From an uncultured Methanobrevibacter sp. (GTDB lineage Archaea > Methanobacteriota > Methanobacteria > Methanobacteriales > Methanobacteriaceae): a DNA stretch of 38,698 nucleotides. Below are positions 22,964 to 32,587 of this stretch, piece after piece (within the stretch, counting starts at the first letter, position 1; every line of letters begins with the position of its first letter). The stretch lies in assembly GCA_900314605.1 (NCBI GenBank), contig OMVX01000037.1:1-38698 (forward strand). The letters are read 5' to 3'. The notes under the pieces are model-generated. The model worked only from the letters and a program-made list of their open reading frames with translations. It made no database searches and had not been told where the DNA came from. The translations under genes were made by a program, and so were the position numbers.

Positions 22964-23644
22964 TTATCTAGTTTCACCCTTCCATTTGAAGTACATAATA
23001 AATGAGTTTATTAGGTATATAGCCCACATTAGTAATACTGCAACACTACCAGTGCCGTCTGACACTGCTTTTACCCACAATGTAACAGTAGCAAGGTTTA
23101 CGATTATCCACAAAATCCATTGTTCAGCATACATCTTAACGGATATGTATAATGCAACAATTCCTACAACTGTACTCAAAGCATCAACAAAAGGTAAATT
23201 ACCATTTAGTAATGCCAATATCATACCATAGACTAATGTTAAAAATGCAACGACAATGAGCATAATTATAGTGTATTTCAAATTCAATGATTTTTTGTAA
23301 ACCTCATTAGTATTTGGATTCATATTTTTTGTCCAGATATATAAACCATAGAGCTGCATTGGTAAATAATAAATGAGATTTAACATCACTTCACCATAAT
23401 ATTTTGATTGAAAAGCAATGATTGAATATGTAATTGCATGCAATAGCCCAAATACATATGCAGATAGTTTTCCTTTACCTGTGCAGATAACACATAATAT
23501 ACCGAATAATGCAGTTATAATTCCAAGTGGTTTGTCACTAATATATATTGACACGCCTGTTATAAGAATTGATGTTAGTACTAACCATATAATCTCCCAT
23601 TTTTTCCATCCCAAAAGTTCATTTTTAATTGTTTCATTTAGCAT
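22964..23644 (-). CDS. pnuC: PnuC-type nicotinamide riboside/mononucleotide transporter
   Basis: This 226-residue membrane protein has seven to eight predicted helices of the PnuC family, facilitators that take up nicotinamide riboside for NAD synthesis. The pattern KLSAYVFGLLHAITYSIIAF...YYGEV...LPMQLYGLYIW and the later QWILWIIVNLATVTLWV are typical of the substrate-lining helices. GAGTGAT precedes the ATG. It is divergent from the NRPS gene. nadE lies about 9 kb to the right and belongs to the same cofactor pathway but is not in the same operon. A related vitamin transporter (such as PnuT or PnuX type) cannot be excluded. Confidence 0.85.
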   Translation of the reverse strand: MLNETIKNELLGWKKWEIIWLVLTSILITGVSIYISDKPLGIITALFGILCVICTGKGKLSAYVFGLLHAITYSIIAFQSKYYGEVMLNLIYYLPMQLYGLYIWTKNMNPNTNEVYKKSLNLKYTIIMLIVVAFLTLVYGMILALLNGNLPFVDALSTVVGIVALYISVKMYAEQWILWIIVNLATVTLWVKAVSDGTGSVAVLLMWAIYLINSFIMYFKWKGETR

Positions 23645-24242: not shown

Positions 24243-27200
24243 ATGTATTCAAATTCAATTAATTATAAAAAAGATGCAGATTACTGGAAAAAATATCTTT
24301 CAAATATTGAGGGTTATGCTGAGATTAAAGTTCCGAAAAATCAAATGAATTATTCCATAGAAAAATCTGTGAAAAATTTAGGTAAAAATCTAAATCAATT
24401 AAACATTGCAGATTTTTCCAGTAAACATGATATTTCACCAGATATCCTATTCATGTCTGCTGTCTTATTAGTATTGGATAAGTATACTTATTCAACAAAA
24501 GCATTACTAACAAATATTCATAAGCAAAAAGTAGATTCCGAAATCTGTAGTAATATAAGAGAATTTTCAAAAGAATTACCCTTAATTATAGACAGAAATA
24601 ATCGGAGCCAAAACATCAAATCATTATTATCTAATGTAAAAAATACATGGGATAATGTTTTAAATCATAGTCGTTATCCTTTTGAAAGAATTATTGAAGG
24701 AAAAAATATTACTCCAACGATTACATTTAGGTATTTTAATGATTATCACTCTAATATAATTGAAAAGAATAATTTAAAATATTTTAAACAGAATCAAGAT
24801 TTGGAAATACATTTTAATAAGAATGAAGATAATAGCTTTTTTATAAGTTTATATTACAATACACAATTATACACCTATGAATATATGAAAACATTTATAA
24901 ATTCCGTTTATCTTATAATAAATAAAATTTTAAATTCAGATATTAATAATTTAACCATTAAGGATATTGGGTTAACTGACAAGAAAATGGATAAAGGTAT
25001 TTTTGATTATTCCATCCCCACTATTGTTGAATTATTTGAAAAGCAGGTTCAGTTAAATTCTTCCAAAAAAGCTTTGATTGTTAATGATGAGCAGATTTCT
25101 TATGATGAGTTAAACCAAAATGCCAATAGAATTGCTAATAGTCTTTTAAAAATAGTTAATCCCAAATCTTCTATTGTCGTTTTTCTTTCTAGGAGTAAAG
25201 AATTGATATATTCTATTTTAGGCGTTCTTAAGGCAGGTTGTTCTTTTATTCCAATAGATGAATCTTATCCTAAAGATCGAATAGAACATATTATAAATGA
25301 TAGTGATTGCCAGCTTATTATAACAGACAAGGATATGGACAATGCAATAAATCCCCAAGTATTATTAGATAATAAAAATACTGATAATCCGAATAATAAG
25401 ATTGATGTTAATGATTTAGCTTATATGCTTTATACTAGTGGTACTACTGGAGTTCCTAAGGGAGTATTTGTTTCTCACAAGAATATTGCAAATATTGTAA
25501 TGCCTGCAAAGGATAATATACTTAATCATACATTCACAGAAGATATAGATAAAGTATTAACATTAACTGCTGTCAATTATACTCCTTCTATAAGGGATTT
25601 CACATTAACACTGGCTTCTGGTTTAACTCTTGTTTATGCAAATAATGATGAAATTGAGAATATTAACAATTTAATCCATTTAATTGAAAAATATAAACCG
25701 CAAATTATAGGTTCAATTACCCCTTCAAGATTAACAGAATATTTGGAAATTCCAAATTTTGTTAAAGCATTCCAACATATTAAAAAAATTGTATTGTTAG
25801 GTGAAAAATTCCCACCATCTTTATATACTAAAATAAAATCTAAAAATTCTTCTATCCGTATATATAATGATTATGGATCTACTGAAACAGTATTTATTGG
25901 CCTTAAGGAAATAGTTAGTGAAGAAAATATTACAATCGGTTCTCCTGGACATAATGTTGATAGATATATAATGGATATTGATGAAAAAATTTTACCTGTA
26001 TCTGTTCAAGGACAATTATATGTTTCAGGCCCATCAATAACATTAGGATATTCAAATAAAGAACTTAACAGTTCTTATATCAAAATTAATAATAAACGAT
26101 TTTTTAAAACAGGTGATTTAGGTTATTTACTGGATAATGGTGAAATTAAATTATTAGGACGTGTTGACAAACAAATAAAATTAAGGGGTCAAAGATTAGA
26201 ACCTGATGAAATTATTACATTAATTAATAAATTTGAAAACATATCAAATAGTACAATAACCCTTAAGCAAATCAATGGTTTGGATTATTTAATTGCATAT
26301 TATGTGAGCAATGTTGAAATAAATGATGATGAATTAACTACCTATTTGAAAAGAAAGCTGCCCATGTATATGGTGCCATCTCAATTTATTAAAATTCCTG
26401 AAATTCCAACTAATATTAATGGTAAATTAGATATGAGCAAATTACCTGAACCATCATTTGATGATATTGAATATGAAGCACCAACAAATGAAAAAGAAAA
26501 CTTAGTTGTAAATGCTTTTGAAAAATTGTTTAATAAGAAAATTGGAATAAATGATGATTTTATTTCCTTGGGAGGAACTTCCCTTACAGCATCACATATT
26601 TTAAATTATTTATCTGATTATAATATAACAACTGCCGATATATTACAATTGAGAACACCTAAAAAATTAGCAGAACATTTAAAGGAAATTAATATTAATT
26701 TTGATAAATATGGATTTGATGATATTGTTCCTTTATCTACATCCCAATTAAATGTATATTTAGATGAAGTGGTTAATGAAACGGGAACTGGATATAATAA
26801 TTCATTTAAACTAGAATTTAATGAAAAATATTCTGTAGATGAAATTAAAAAAGCTTTAATTAAATTAATTGATATATACCCTATTTTAAAAACCCGTATC
26901 ATAAATCATAATGGACAAACACCATCCTGCGTATTTGATGCAAAATTAGAAATTAAAGAAGGAAACTTAAACGACATTAAAACTTTTGTCAGACCTTTTA
27001 AATTGGATAAAAATATATCAAGGTTTTTAATTGTAAAAGATGGTAAATCTAATATTTTATGTTTTGACATACATCATTTAATTTTTGATGGCTCATCATT
27101 AAATATACTATTAAACACATTAAACTCTATTTTAAATAATAAAAAAGTCGATTTTGTTGATAATGGAATATTAAGACAAATATTATTTGAAGAAAATATT

Positions 27201-30200
27201 GATTCCAAATATATGGATGATGCAAAAGAATTTTTTAATTCAATGTTAGCTAATATTGATGAAGCATATGATCTTTTACCTTCCATAGACAAGGATAATG
27301 AAACTGAATATATGGATACTTTTCATATAGATAATAAGGCTTTGACTACCTTTTTACAAAGTAACAGTATTACTCATAATCAGTTTTTTTCAAGTATTTT
27401 CGCCTATACCTTATCTAGATTTACAGGTTCCAATAAAGTTTTATTTAATCTCATTGTTGATGGAAGAGGGCATGTAGATTTAACAAATTCTGTAGGAATG
27501 TTTGTTAGAACTTTACCTATTTTACTTGATTGTAAAAATCAAAAAGTAAGTTCTTTTTTTAAACAATCTTCAAATATAATTAATTCATTGATAAAATATG
27601 AACTATATCCATTCCATCAATTAACTCATGAACATGATTTAAATCCAAATATATTTTTCCAATATTCTTATGATATTTTTGAAAATGATATCTATGAATT
27701 AAAACATGATTTTAAAAGAGATTTATCATTTAATATTTATGATGTTAGTGAAGATGAACTAGGAATAAAAGTATTATATTCTGAAAAATTCTCACAAGAA
27801 TTCATTAAACGCTTTGTTGATTGCTATATATTAATTTTAAATGGAATCATGAAAGTTAATGAATTATCTAATCTAAATTTTAATCTTAAATCAGATTTAA
27901 TTTTACTGGATTCCTATAATAACACTGAAGATTCTTTAATATATGAGGATGTTTTAGATGCATTTAATGAAAATCTCTCAAGGCATCCTGATAATAAACT
28001 TGTATCTTATAAAGATGTTTCTTACTCATATGGTGAAAGCGCTTTTATAGCAAATAAGATTGCTCAAAAGTTAATTGGGCTAGGAGTCGAATTTCAAACT
28101 AGTGTTGGCTTTTTAGTACCTCGTAGTGAATTGTATATGCTTTCAGTCTTAAGTATTTTATCCGTTGGTGCCGTTTATGTTCCTTTAGATAATCAGTTGT
28201 CTGATGAACGCATAAAATTCATGATTAATGATACCAAAACTAAGGTTATTATTGTCAGTGATGAGACATATGAACGTGCAACTAATTTAGGTGGGGAATA
28301 CAATATTTTAAATGTCTCAGACATTATAAATGACAAGGTCTCTACTTTATCAATATTACCTGTGGTTCATAGTGATTTAGCTTGTATTTTGTATACAAGC
28401 GGTACTACTGGCATTCCTAAAGGAGTCAAAATTACTAGAAAGGCAATTCTTAATATATCAAGTGTTTATTGTGATAAATATGAATTTACTCGAGATTGTG
28501 TTGGCGGTATGTTTGCAACAATTGGTTTTGATATAGGCTCTCTGTCAATTGTAACAGCATTGTATTCTGGTGCTTGTTTAGACATAATTCCTGAAGATAT
28601 TAAACTAAACATGTTTGAATTAAACAGATTTATTAATGAGCATAATATTACCCATATTTCAATTACTGCACAGGTAGCAAAATTATTCATGCAAAATGAC
28701 AGTGCTAATTCACTCAGAATTTTATCTGTTGGGGGTGAAAAACTAGGAGAAATCAAAAGCCCAAATAATTATATGTTAATTGATGAATTCGGACCTACAG
28801 AATCATTTGCTTTTGTATCATCAATCAATAATTCTGATAAAATTGACCCCTCTTCAATCGGCCACATTAATAAAAATATGAAATTTTATATTCTGGATGA
28901 TGAATTCAGACAAGTTCCTATTGGTGCTGTAGGTGAATTATACTTATCAGGTTTTCAGGTTGCTGAAGGTTATCTGAATCGTGAAAAAGAAACAAAAAAT
29001 GCATTCCTTAAAAATCCATTCAGTGATGATAATGATTATGATAAACTTTATCGTACTGGAGATATGGTACGTGTATTGCCTGATGGTTCTTTAGGCATTG
29101 TAGGTCGTCCTGACAGTCAGGTCAAAATTAGAGGTAATCGTGTAGAACTTTCAGAAGTTGAAGCTGCAATTCGCCAACTTAATTATATTGATGATGTAAC
29201 TGTACAACCTACCAAAATCCAAGAAAATAACGAGTTAGTAGCTTATGTAGTTGTATTAGAAGAGATTAAAAATCTTAAAGAAGATATTCAAAAATATATT
29301 AAAATGAATAAACCTGATTATATGGTTCCTCTCTTTGTTATTCAGTTGGATAATATTCCTTTAACCGTTAACGGAAAGGTAGATAAAAATAAGTTGCCAA
29401 AAGTAGAAATCAACACTAAAAATACAGCGCCAAAAAACCATACAGAAAAGAAATTGTTGGAAATATGTTGGGAAGTATTGGATAATCAAAATTTTGGTGT
29501 CACTGATAATTTAGCTTCTTTAGGTATTTCTTCATTTAATTTAATAGAGTTAAATCATAGAATTTATTCAACATTTAACATAGACTTAAAGTATTTGGAT
29601 TTAGTGCAGTGTAAAAATATTAGAGACATATATTATCTTTTGAACAAAAACAATTACACTGTCTTTAAAAAATATGAAAAAAGAAAATATTATCCTTTAA
29701 CTGAACATCAGACTTGGGTCAGTCAGTTAAGAATTGAAACTCCTAATTATCTTAAATTAAATTTTACTGTAAAAATTAAAAATGTTGATGTTTTTCGTCT
29801 TAAAAAAACCATTATAAACTTTATGGATAAACATCCATTTTTAAAATCTACATTAATAGAAAAACAGGGAAAATATTATCTTAAACGGGAAGACAATGCA
29901 AATATTTCAGATTTAATTGATATTGATAGGAAAAACAAAAAGGAATTTGATTTATTTGTAAAAAAATTGGATAATGATTCCCATTTTTTAGAAAATTATC
30001 TTAAAGAGGGATATATAAAATATAGCTCTAAATTTTTTTACTGCCGATTGACTGAATATAATAATACTGTATTTGTTACAATATTATTTGATCACCTGTT
30101 CTTTGATTATTATTCCTTATTCTCCATGCTAAATGAAATTGATAAAATTTATTCTAATGATGAGGATAAAATAGAACCTGAAATCATTGACGGTTTTGAT

Positions 30201-30968
30201 TATAATATGTTTTTTGTTAATGATGAGAAAAAAAATTCCAAATTCAATAAAAAACTGGAAAAAGAACTATTCGATTATGGAGATTTATATATTACACCAG
30301 ACAGAAATGAGGATATTAATCCAATTCAGCGAAGCAATATTATGCATGCTTTTCATAATAAAAAATCCATTCAGGAATATTGTAAAAAATTTAATATTAA
30401 ATATAATCAGTTTTTCTTAGCAACATTTGTTTTAACAATATCTAAATTCTGTGGATTGAAAAAAGGATTTGTTCCTGTATTATACAATGGACGGATTTTT
30501 AATGAAATACTAAATACATATTACTGTACTGTAAAACCTATTTTTTTAAAAATGGAAATGTATAAATGGACTACTATTAAAGATGTCATTGACAATATAT
30601 CTGATGAATTTATTAGAATTTTTAAGACAGAACCTAATACTTCATTATATCTTTTTTACGAAAATCAGTGGATATTCAATTTCATTGAATATTCAGAAAA
30701 TAATTTTAATTTGGATATTTCTGATTATAAAAATAGGGCAAATACTTCAGAATCAGCTAAGAAAGACCATGAAAATTATTTAAATGAATCAATAATATTT
30801 GAAACGGAAAAATATTATGTTGTTAATATGAGTTTTCGTGATAAATATTATTCACAAAAATATATTGATGAGTTTTTAAATTGTTGGGACCAAATAATTA
30901 AATATGTAACATATCAAGAAGATTTAAATATGAGTCTAGATTTTAATGAAAAAAATTTTGAAAAATAA
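24243..30968 (+). CDS. two-module non-ribosomal peptide synthetase with atypical ends
   Basis: This 2241-residue megasynthase builds a small peptide-like product on carrier domains. Order read from the sequence: C-terminal lobe of a condensation domain only (1-245, starting DADYWKKYL); adenylation A1 (260-735: YTSGTTGVPKG, NDYGSTET, FKTGDLG, NGKLD); carrier T1 (Ser780 in LGGTSL); full condensation C2 (825-1225, HHLIFDG at 944-950); adenylation A2 (1235-1715: YTSGTTGIPKG, DEFGPTES, YRTGDM, NGKVD); carrier T2 (Ser1764 in LGISSF); terminal condensation-like C3 (1815-2235) with DHLFFDY at 1950-1956. There is no thioesterase, reductase, epimerase or methylase. A1 has Thr447 where the amino-binding Asp normally sits; A2 keeps it (Asp1430). 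GTGATTT precedes the ATG. No phosphopantetheinyl transferase or dedicated exporter is in the window. The product is unknown. Confidence 0.95.
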   Translation: MYSNSINYKKDADYWKKYLSNIEGYAEIKVPKNQMNYSIEKSVKNLGKNLNQLNIADFSSKHDISPDILFMSAVLLVLDKYTYSTKALLTNIHKQKVDSEICSNIREFSKELPLIIDRNNRSQNIKSLLSNVKNTWDNVLNHSRYPFERIIEGKNITPTITFRYFNDYHSNIIEKNNLKYFKQNQDLEIHFNKNEDNSFFISLYYNTQLYTYEYMKTFINSVYLIINKILNSDINNLTIKDIGLTDKKMDKGIFDYSIPTIVELFEKQVQLNSSKKALIVNDEQISYDELNQNANRIANSLLKIVNPKSSIVVFLSRSKELIYSILGVLKAGCSFIPIDESYPKDRIEHIINDSDCQLIITDKDMDNAINPQVLLDNKNTDNPNNKIDVNDLAYMLYTSGTTGVPKGVFVSHKNIANIVMPAKDNILNHTFTEDIDKVLTLTAVNYTPSIRDFTLTLASGLTLVYANNDEIENINNLIHLIEKYKPQIIGSITPSRLTEYLEIPNFVKAFQHIKKIVLLGEKFPPSLYTKIKSKNSSIRIYNDYGSTETVFIGLKEIVSEENITIGSPGHNVDRYIMDIDEKILPVSVQGQLYVSGPSITLGYSNKELNSSYIKINNKRFFKTGDLGYLLDNGEIKLLGRVDKQIKLRGQRLEPDEIITLINKFENISNSTITLKQINGLDYLIAYYVSNVEINDDELTTYLKRKLPMYMVPSQFIKIPEIPTNINGKLDMSKLPEPSFDDIEYEAPTNEKENLVVNAFEKLFNKKIGINDDFISLGGTSLTASHILNYLSDYNITTADILQLRTPKKLAEHLKEININFDKYGFDDIVPLSTSQLNVYLDEVVNETGTGYNNSFKLEFNEKYSVDEIKKALIKLIDIYPILKTRIINHNGQTPSCVFDAKLEIKEGNLNDIKTFVRPFKLDKNISRFLIVKDGKSNILCFDIHHLIFDGSSLNILLNTLNSILNNKKVDFVDNGILRQILFEENIDSKYMDDAKEFFNSMLANIDEAYDLLPSIDKDNETEYMDTFHIDNKALTTFLQSNSITHNQFFSSIFAYTLSRFTGSNKVLFNLIVDGRGHVDLTNSVGMFVRTLPILLDCKNQKVSSFFKQSSNIINSLIKYELYPFHQLTHEHDLNPNIFFQYSYDIFENDIYELKHDFKRDLSFNIYDVSEDELGIKVLYSEKFSQEFIKRFVDCYILILNGIMKVNELSNLNFNLKSDLILLDSYNNTEDSLIYEDVLDAFNENLSRHPDNKLVSYKDVSYSYGESAFIANKIAQKLIGLGVEFQTSVGFLVPRSELYMLSVLSILSVGAVYVPLDNQLSDERIKFMINDTKTKVIIVSDETYERATNLGGEYNILNVSDIINDKVSTLSILPVVHSDLACILYTSGTTGIPKGVKITRKAILNISSVYCDKYEFTRDCVGGMFATIGFDIGSLSIVTALYSGACLDIIPEDIKLNMFELNRFINEHNITHISITAQVAKLFMQNDSANSLRILSVGGEKLGEIKSPNNYMLIDEFGPTESFAFVSSINNSDKIDPSSIGHINKNMKFYILDDEFRQVPIGAVGELYLSGFQVAEGYLNREKETKNAFLKNPFSDDNDYDKLYRTGDMVRVLPDGSLGIVGRPDSQVKIRGNRVELSEVEAAIRQLNYIDDVTVQPTKIQENNELVAYVVVLEEIKNLKEDIQKYIKMNKPDYMVPLFVIQLDNIPLTVNGKVDKNKLPKVEINTKNTAPKNHTEKKLLEICWEVLDNQNFGVTDNLASLGISSFNLIELNHRIYSTFNIDLKYLDLVQCKNIRDIYYLLNKNNYTVFKKYEKRKYYPLTEHQTWVSQLRIETPNYLKLNFTVKIKNVDVFRLKKTIINFMDKHPFLKSTLIEKQGKYYLKREDNANISDLIDIDRKNKKEFDLFVKKLDNDSHFLENYLKEGYIKYSSKFFYCRLTEYNNTVFVTILFDHLFFDYYSLFSMLNEIDKIYSNDEDKIEPEIIDGFDYNMFFVNDEKKNSKFNKKLEKELFDYGDLYITPDRNEDINPIQRSNIMHAFHNKKSIQEYCKKFNIKYNQFFLATFVLTISKFCGLKKGFVPVLYNGRIFNEILNTYYCTVKPIFLKMEMYKWTTIKDVIDNISDEFIRIFKTEPNTSLYLFYENQWIFNFIEYSENNFNLDISDYKNRANTSESAKKDHENYLNESIIFETEKYYVVNMSFRDKYYSQKYIDEFLNCWDQIIKYVTYQEDLNMSLDFNEKNFEK

Positions 30969-30979
30969 TAAAAAAATTC

Positions 30980-32572
30980 TTATTTAGAATCAAGATATTT
31001 TTTTACAGTATAATCTACACTTAATTTAAACCATTCTTTATCCATTTCAGATTCTATGGCATAGTACCCTTCATCAATTATCATACTTAAATCTCTTATA
31101 AAAAGATCATTATCAGATATATTTGAATTTTCAAATAAATCTTTTTCAATTGTCATCCCATATTTGTATAATTCTTCTATTTTGAAATTAGAATCCCTGT
31201 AAAAAATTTGAGGTTCTCTTAAAGGGTTTTCTGGAATTATATAATATTTTTCCCAATCATAACAACGTTGCTCTGGAGGGGTTAAATCCCATAATAAGGA
31301 TCCTGGAAGTGCTATAGGCATAAAAGATTTTACCATCAATTTTTCACAAATTAAATCATGTTCCTTGAAAAATTTAATCGTGTCCTCATACATTGTTGGT
31401 TTTTCTTTTGGCAACCCAAATAAAAATAAAACTAAACAAGAAATATTTACATCCATTAGCTTTCTAAAAGTTTTTGCAGCGACTGTTAGGTATTCCTCTG
31501 TTTTTTTATGAGAAATTTTTCCATTGAACTTTAATGTATCCAAGTTGACACTTTCAAATCCGAATATAATATTTCTACAGTAGCTTCCTTTTAATGATTC
31601 AATATCTTTTGTTTTCAAAAGGTCAACTCTTGTTCCAAACTCCCATGGAATCTTGAGGTCTCTCATAGTATTGCAGACAGCCTTTAATTGCCTTTTATTT
31701 GCCCCAAATAATGCATCATATATTGTGATTTTTTTGGGTTCATATAATTCATATAATGTTTTTAAATACTTGATAGTATTTTCTTCATTAAGTGTTCTGT
31801 ACTTTCCTTGGTCTACTATTCGGGAATTACAGAAGGAACATCTTCCTATACATCCTCTAGATAAAATTATTGAACCTGCAGGGTCTCTATCATGCCAAAA
31901 TGGTCCATCTAAAGCTTTAACATAAGCTCTATACTTTTCTATTTCAAAATCATCAAAAACTTCAAAAATTGGTGCTAAAGTATTTAAATCTTTAATAAAT
32001 CCTATACCTGGATTGATTTTCACATGACCATCTTCAAAATAATCAATCCCTTCAATATTTTCCAGACTTTTACCATTTTCTAGATTTTGAATAATTTGAT
32101 AAATAATTTCTTCACCTTCACCTTTTACAACTATATCGATTAATCCCTTATTTAATAATTCTTGAGAATAGTATGTTGCATGAATTCCTCCACAGATAAT
32201 AATACTTTCAGGTGAAACTCTTTTAATTAACTCAAATGTCTGAAATGAAGAATTTGCTGTAGAACTAAAATGACAATCAGATATGATTACATCAAAGGCA
32301 TGTTCTGTTAAGTATTTTTCCAGTTCCTTTTCAGGAAATTCCATACAATGTTGAGTAAATGTTTTGAACATAAAAATTTCACTATTTTTAAAATCATTGA
32401 AGGAATTTAATTTTAATGAATCAACATCAAGATAATGAATATTTGCATCCAATATATCTATTTCAACATTTTTAGATTTTAAGTATGCAGAAATACTCAT
32501 CAAACCCTGAGGAGGGGAATAGACAACATATTGCTTCGGACAATGAAGCACACAAATTTTTAAAGTATTCAT
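30980..32572 (-). CDS. cobalamin-binding radical SAM protein (class B type)
   Basis: This enzyme has an N-terminal B12-binding Rossmann domain (about residues 1-170: PPQGLMSISAYLKSKNVEIDILD, ICGGIHATYY, VVKGEGEE) and a radical SAM barrel with the 4Fe-4S motif CIGRCSFC (Cys241, Cys245, Cys248 from this start). Such proteins methylate unactivated carbons or do other radical chemistry, often in natural-product pathways. I start at ATG 32572, where GGAG lies nine bases upstream; the ATG at 32587 overlaps that site and has none of its own. It converges on the NRPS with an 11-bp gap. It could tailor the NRPS product, but it might equally act on lipids or cofactors; the placement is suggestive only. 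Confidence 0.9.
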   Translation of the reverse strand: MNTLKICVLHCPKQYVVYSPPQGLMSISAYLKSKNVEIDILDANIHYLDVDSLKLNSFNDFKNSEIFMFKTFTQHCMEFPEKELEKYLTEHAFDVIISDCHFSSTANSSFQTFELIKRVSPESIIICGGIHATYYSQELLNKGLIDIVVKGEGEEIIYQIIQNLENGKSLENIEGIDYFEDGHVKINPGIGFIKDLNTLAPIFEVFDDFEIEKYRAYVKALDGPFWHDRDPAGSIILSRGCIGRCSFCNSRIVDQGKYRTLNEENTIKYLKTLYELYEPKKITIYDALFGANKRQLKAVCNTMRDLKIPWEFGTRVDLLKTKDIESLKGSYCRNIIFGFESVNLDTLKFNGKISHKKTEEYLTVAAKTFRKLMDVNISCLVLFLFGLPKEKPTMYEDTIKFFKEHDLICEKLMVKSFMPIALPGSLLWDLTPPEQRCYDWEKYYIIPENPLREPQIFYRDSNFKIEELYKYGMTIEKDLFENSNISDNDLFIRDLSMIIDEGYYAIESEMDKEWFKLSVDYTVKKYLDSK

Positions 32573-32587
32573 ATTATTTTTCTCCAT

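Follow-up and report, generated by a model that had tools for sequence, protein, structure and literature searches.

Which kind of building block is loaded by an adenylation (A) domain that lacks the aspartate normally holding the alpha-amino group of its substrate? This question is raised by a nonribosomal peptide synthetase (NRPS) gene of an uncultured Methanobrevibacter sp. (assembly GCA_900314605.1), found in a 38,698-nucleotide stretch of DNA (henceforth the window) which is a complete contig of the 2.37-Mb genome; the family also includes a MAG labelled Methanobrevibacter. NRPSs have already been reported in Methanobrevibacter (PMC2812497, PMC5467289), and the literature that we searched describes what archaeal NRPSs make as unknown. 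The gene (24243..30968, forward strand, as for all of its features below) is a single open frame encoding 2241 amino acids, with the Pfam domain order half-C, A1, T1, C2, A2, T2 and C3. Specifically, a condensation domain represented by its C-lobe only (24243..24935; Pfam Condensation positions 185-435, without the N-lobe that carries HHxxxDG) is followed by A1 (25035..26444; Pfam AMP-binding, AlphaFold and Foldseek), the carrier domain T1 (26532..26681; LGGTSL, Ser780), C2 (26721..27854; intact HHLIFDG at 27072-27092), A2 (27963..29378), the carrier domain T2 (29454..29630; LGISSF, Ser1764) and a terminal condensation-type domain, C3 (29682..30917), in which DHLFFDY replaces HHxxxDG (30090-30110). 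Pfam found neither a thioesterase nor a reductase domain in the 2241-residue protein.

The gene is flanked upstream by a divergent PnuC-like nicotinamide riboside transporter gene (22964-23644, reverse strand) and downstream by a convergent B12-binding radical SAM gene (30980-32587, reverse strand). The best NCBIfam models for the latter were P-methyltransferase-like and HpnJ-like, both far below cut-off, and we rejected it as a conserved partner of the NRPS since only distant matches were found in relatives. The genome is unusually rich in NRPSs, with 29 stretches matching A1 on roughly a dozen contigs and with open frames of up to 3629 amino acids.

To locate the substrate pocket of A1 we used as reference a GrsA fragment checked against chain 1AMU, in which chain numbering gives an Asp at position 235. 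The motif NYTPSIRDF is present in the translated frame, with T447 to F453 encoded exactly by 25581..25601, and the alignments place Thr447, Pro448 and Arg451 at positions 235, 236 and 239, respectively. The initial annotation had matched Thr447 to Asp235 by eye and named an Asp at 235 on realignment as the outcome that would overturn this match. We looked for such an Asp in every alignment made (MAFFT with 3, 51 and 181 sequences, BLOSUM62 pairwise and HMMER, the last against both LgrA A domains), and each time found Thr. Nine positions of the pocket read in the initial annotation, T-P-R-G-V-L-D-F-I-K, likewise agree with ours (T447, P448, R451, V517, L519, D543, F551, I552 and K728), while position 278 shifts with the aligner (G490, S491 or T493), making Gly one option among several. 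A1 therefore has Thr447 in place of the clamp of alpha-amino-acid A domains; A2 of the same protein keeps Asp235 (code D-I-L-S-S-G-E-A-F-K in the 181-sequence alignment). Thr235 is not an isolated change, since the nearest relative of A1, 60-63% identical over the A domain (60% by blastp), also has Thr there.

The altered pocket lies in what appears to be a working NRPS A domain. The P-loop (TSGTTGVPKG) and the YGSTE, FKTGD, GRVDKQIKLRG and NGK motifs are intact, Lys728 (26424..26426) is the equivalent of the catalytic Lys517 by pairwise alignment, and a carrier domain follows downstream. An AlphaFold model based on an input of 66 sequences had a mean pLDDT of 92.8, and a Foldseek search with it returned LgrA, Txo2 and GrsA as top matches, the LgrA initiation module being the best. 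The expectation that the remaining core motifs are intact and that the domain looks active is thus borne out by motifs and predicted structure, and the genome encodes a phosphopantetheinyl transferase. Alternatively, A1 could be a decayed, inactive leftover at the head of a series of domains in which half of the first C domain is gone, which would fit the truncation seen by Pfam, the degenerate HHxxxDG of the terminal C domain and the lack of any recognised export, thioesterase (TE) or regulatory gene adjoining the NRPS gene. We consider this very improbable: the 2241-residue frame is open with all core A motifs in place, the model is confident, a homologue in the Methanobrevibacter MAG RUG11428 retains the pocket pattern, and other NRPSs of the family also give C-lobe matches at their N-termini.

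Is it exceptional for a related enzyme to lack Asp235? We compared 180 non-redundant A-type domains from fetched Methanobacteriaceae loci (181 sequences including GrsA). In this sample, which was drawn from NRPS-rich regions chosen by similarity to A1 and whose counts are not family frequencies, position 235 was Asp in 150/180 domains, Ile or Val in 27/180 (three of which look to us like acyl-CoA ligases), Asn in 1/180 and Thr in 2/180, i.e., A1 and one domain in RUG11428. When the pocket columns were left out of a tree of A domains, the two Thr domains formed a single, fully supported clade, and A1 grouped with a clade of methanogen A domains, most of which keep Asp235. Loss of Asp235 occurred in several separate events on this tree, at least four of them forced by starred branches; one case is a two-module NRPS that ends in a reductase, resembles M. 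ruminantium mru0068 and lacks Asp235 in its first A domain. Having been lost repeatedly among methanogen A domains, Asp235 is not remarkable here by its absence alone. A search for wider relatives, with one scan over named genomes and another over the class, gave the RUG11428 MAG alone, and plasmid-borne NRPSs were at most 35% identical among the matches listed.

Val or Ile at 235 was found at loci L052, L054/L007, L053, L055 (own genome), L100, L101 and L076:832-2343 (RUG11428), with codes such as VALIAAAGSK and IARIVAAAAK; several of these have no other A domain before them in their frame, and they could be loading keto acids or other starters that lack an amino group. Ile235 combined with Arg239 (IVRGIGSIAK, IARSTGSIAK) was found at L140, L147, L138, L143, L139, L134-L137 and L142, in the first A domain of methanogen NRPSs of C-A-T-C-A-T-reductase layout (L140 by Pfam) and of similar ones.

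A domains lacking Asp235 are already known (PMC11253843), and the initial annotation took the loss to suggest a starter without a free alpha-amino group. This is still the leading idea, but a missing Asp235 is not enough to settle which class of substrate is used, since the A domain of McyG activates L-Phe with Val at 235 (PMC11253843) and many A domains of the family do without Asp235. Judged from sequence, A1 and its homologue stand apart as a clade of two that combines Thr235 with Leu301, Asp322 and a loop that is one residue shorter. Position 301 (Leu519 in A1; 25797..25799) is Gly or Ala in 174/181 sequences and Leu in only two, A1 and its homologue. An acidic residue at position 322 (Asp543; 25869..25871) occurs in 7/181 sequences. 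The shortened beta13-beta14 loop of A1 (T549-V550-F551; 25887..25895) was identified both by a loop count and by HMMER: between YGxTE and the next Lys there are 6 residues in A1 (TVFIGL) and in its homologue (SVGIGL) and 7 or 8 in 121 comparable relatives, and alignment of A1 to LgrA places a one-residue deletion directly after YGxTE. Pro236, by contrast, is not distinctive, as 10 Asp235 domains also carry it. The two pockets differ at positions 239 and 330 (Arg and Phe in A1, Ile and Gly in the RUG11428 homologue), meaning that the substrates of the pair need not match. None of the literature that we searched reports these changes together.

The position of the two domains within their proteins further narrows the choice. 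The description of A1 as a starter domain holds in that A1 is the first loading site of this protein, because the half C domain upstream lacks the catalytic lobe; a frameshifted or remnant N-lobe was searched for in the DNA upstream of the NRPS, and none was found. The C-lobe remnant is 41% identical to the C domain preceding the homologous A domain in RUG11428. Five further NRPS frames of methanogens likewise start with a match to no more than the C-terminal part of the condensation profile (four at 23-29 bits and one at 19, all below the Pfam cut-off), so that such a beginning appears to be common. The homologue itself belongs to an elongation module of a 5880-residue NRPS (carrier, C with HHIIMD, A, carrier, C, carrier). 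Standing behind a full C domain, it probably takes a substrate with a nucleophile (amine or hydroxyl), and a plain acyl, carboxylic or keto acid is therefore unlikely for the homologue's A domain, as far as its domain order tells.

Several substrate classes have to be weighed against these observations. The plain carboxylic and keto acids proposed initially fit poorly with the homologue's place in an elongation module. For a keto acid in particular, the A domain would normally have an aliphatic residue at 235 (PMC10949194) and a ketoreductase (KR) domain would be expected; A1 has the polar Thr, no KR domain was matched in its module or elsewhere in the protein, and we rejected this option. An alpha- or beta-hydroxy acid, its hydroxyl group held by that of Thr447 and by backbone carbonyls, would lead to a depsipeptide or a hydroxyacyl-aminoacyl product. 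Known alpha-hydroxy domains lack Asp235 (with Ala in engineered TycA and Gly in EnSyn; PMC11253843), a hydroxyl would still serve as the nucleophile in the homologue's elongation module, and no KR domain would be necessary if the hydroxy acid were taken up directly. These precedents, however, have small aliphatic residues at 235 rather than Thr, the engineered phenyllactate variant of TycA keeps a full-length loop, and both the short loop and Asp322 would be left without explanation, which makes a hydroxy acid an unlikely substrate in our view.

An ordinary alpha-amino acid, with its amine held by backbone carbonyls or Asp543, has the McyG precedent (L-Phe with Val235; PMC11253843) behind it, as well as the placement of A1 in a methanogen clade that mostly keeps Asp235; yet the joint occurrence of loop shortening, Leu301 and Asp322 suggests an altered substrate geometry and not drift, and we regard it as distinctly unlikely. 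A1 might instead activate the distal carboxyl of an amino dicarboxylic acid in the manner of ACV synthetase (ACVS) with aminoadipate; Arg451 would then bind the free alpha-carboxylate, and the alpha-amine would be held by Asp543 at the bottom of the pocket. The ACVS code EPRNIVEFVK resembles TPRxVLDFIK, and the P-R at 236/239 is common to A1 and the aminoadipate code DPRHLALLAK (PMC12283262). However, DPRHLALLAK keeps the acidic residue at 235 where A1 has Thr, Arg239 is also present in methanogen pockets that differ in other respects (IARSTGSIAK, DVRTIGSVAK), and it is replaced by Ile in the only homologue; we thus set an aminoadipate-like code aside as the main reading and hold activation of a distal carboxyl to be quite improbable.

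All of this points to A1 probably loading an unusual building block, and our preferred, if tentative, reading is that its substrate is a beta- (or longer omega-) amino acid, with the amine bound by Asp543, a possible replacement anchor that the initial annotation had not weighed. In VinN, IdnL1, CmiS6, HitB and engineered TycA, a short beta13-beta14 loop together with bulkier residues at 236 and 301 admits beta-amino acids (PMC11253843), and the beta-Phe variants of TycA (5n81/5n82) show the same one-residue loop shortening (YGPTE-CLV-ATIW). A1 resembles these enzymes in its shorter loop; of its residues at 301 and 236, Leu301 is distinctive and Pro236 is not. By contrast, all beta-amino-acid A domains covered in the same review keep Asp235, which binds the beta-amine (PMC11253843), whereas A1 has Thr at 235 and Asp at 322. 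Lacking a defining feature of the VinN type, A1 is not assignable as a member of that group, but it may work in a VinN-like manner with a relocated anchor, for which Asp543 is the candidate. The beta-amino-acid option of the initial annotation is thus weakened by the missing Asp but favoured by the short loop and Leu301, neither of which it had noted. It is also consistent with the homologue's C domain, which carries HHIIMD and needs a nucleophile such as an amine; on the other side, the pattern is carried by two sequences only.

As for a likely monomer, neither the genome itself nor RUG11428 gave a match to the lysine-2,3-aminomutase family, meaning that there is no obvious supply of beta-lysine or beta-glutamate, and we rejected both as substrates of A1. 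The genome encodes an archaeal Tyr/Asp decarboxylase, making beta-alanine a possible monomer. Separately, two other domains in RUG11428 (L110:1144-2736 and L149:6988-8532; codes DVELQAVY-K and DIEFRGLA-K) have a loop after YGxTE that is apparently one residue shorter and keep Asp235; by their sequence, these archaeal domains could be beta-amino-acid domains of the classic VinN type.

Under the beta-amino-acid reading, the pocket of A1 would have been rebuilt away from alpha-amino acids within a small, methanogen-specific clade, through replacement of Asp235 by Thr and of residue 301 by Leu, loss of one loop residue and gain of an acid at 322. Asp543 would pair with the displaced amine, while Thr447 and the loop backbone would hold the remainder. 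A1 would then load T1 with the starter, C2 would couple it to the alpha-amino acid that A2 selects, and release would take place through the terminal C3.

Other known systems share parts of this arrangement. The LgrA initiation module (linear gramicidin), a starter adenylation module, is the best PDB match of A1 by both sequence and fold, but it has Asp235 and a longer loop. LgrA begins with a formyltransferase domain, whereas A1 is preceded by the C-lobe remnant. McyG (Phe, Val235) and the hydroxy- and keto-acid domains of EnSyn and StsA lack Asp235 as A1 does; unlike A1, their published residues at 235 are aliphatic or Gly/Ala, and the literature searched describes no short loop for them. 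The NRPSs of the M. ruminantium mru0068/mru0351 type belong to the same archaeal family, and A1 clusters with A domains of methanogens. Several of those also lack Asp235, but there it is replaced by Ile, Val or Asn and the loop is normal or longer. We propose, with reservation, that a natural type of A domain for beta- or omega-amino acids, dispensing with Asp235 in favour of Asp322 and a short loop, may have evolved within methanogen NRPSs, the pattern having been seen so far in two species. The combination of changes in A1 would extend the code by which building blocks are predicted and would make it possible to test whether the amine anchor of an A domain can be relocated, and it would point to an unusual monomer in a methanogen natural product.
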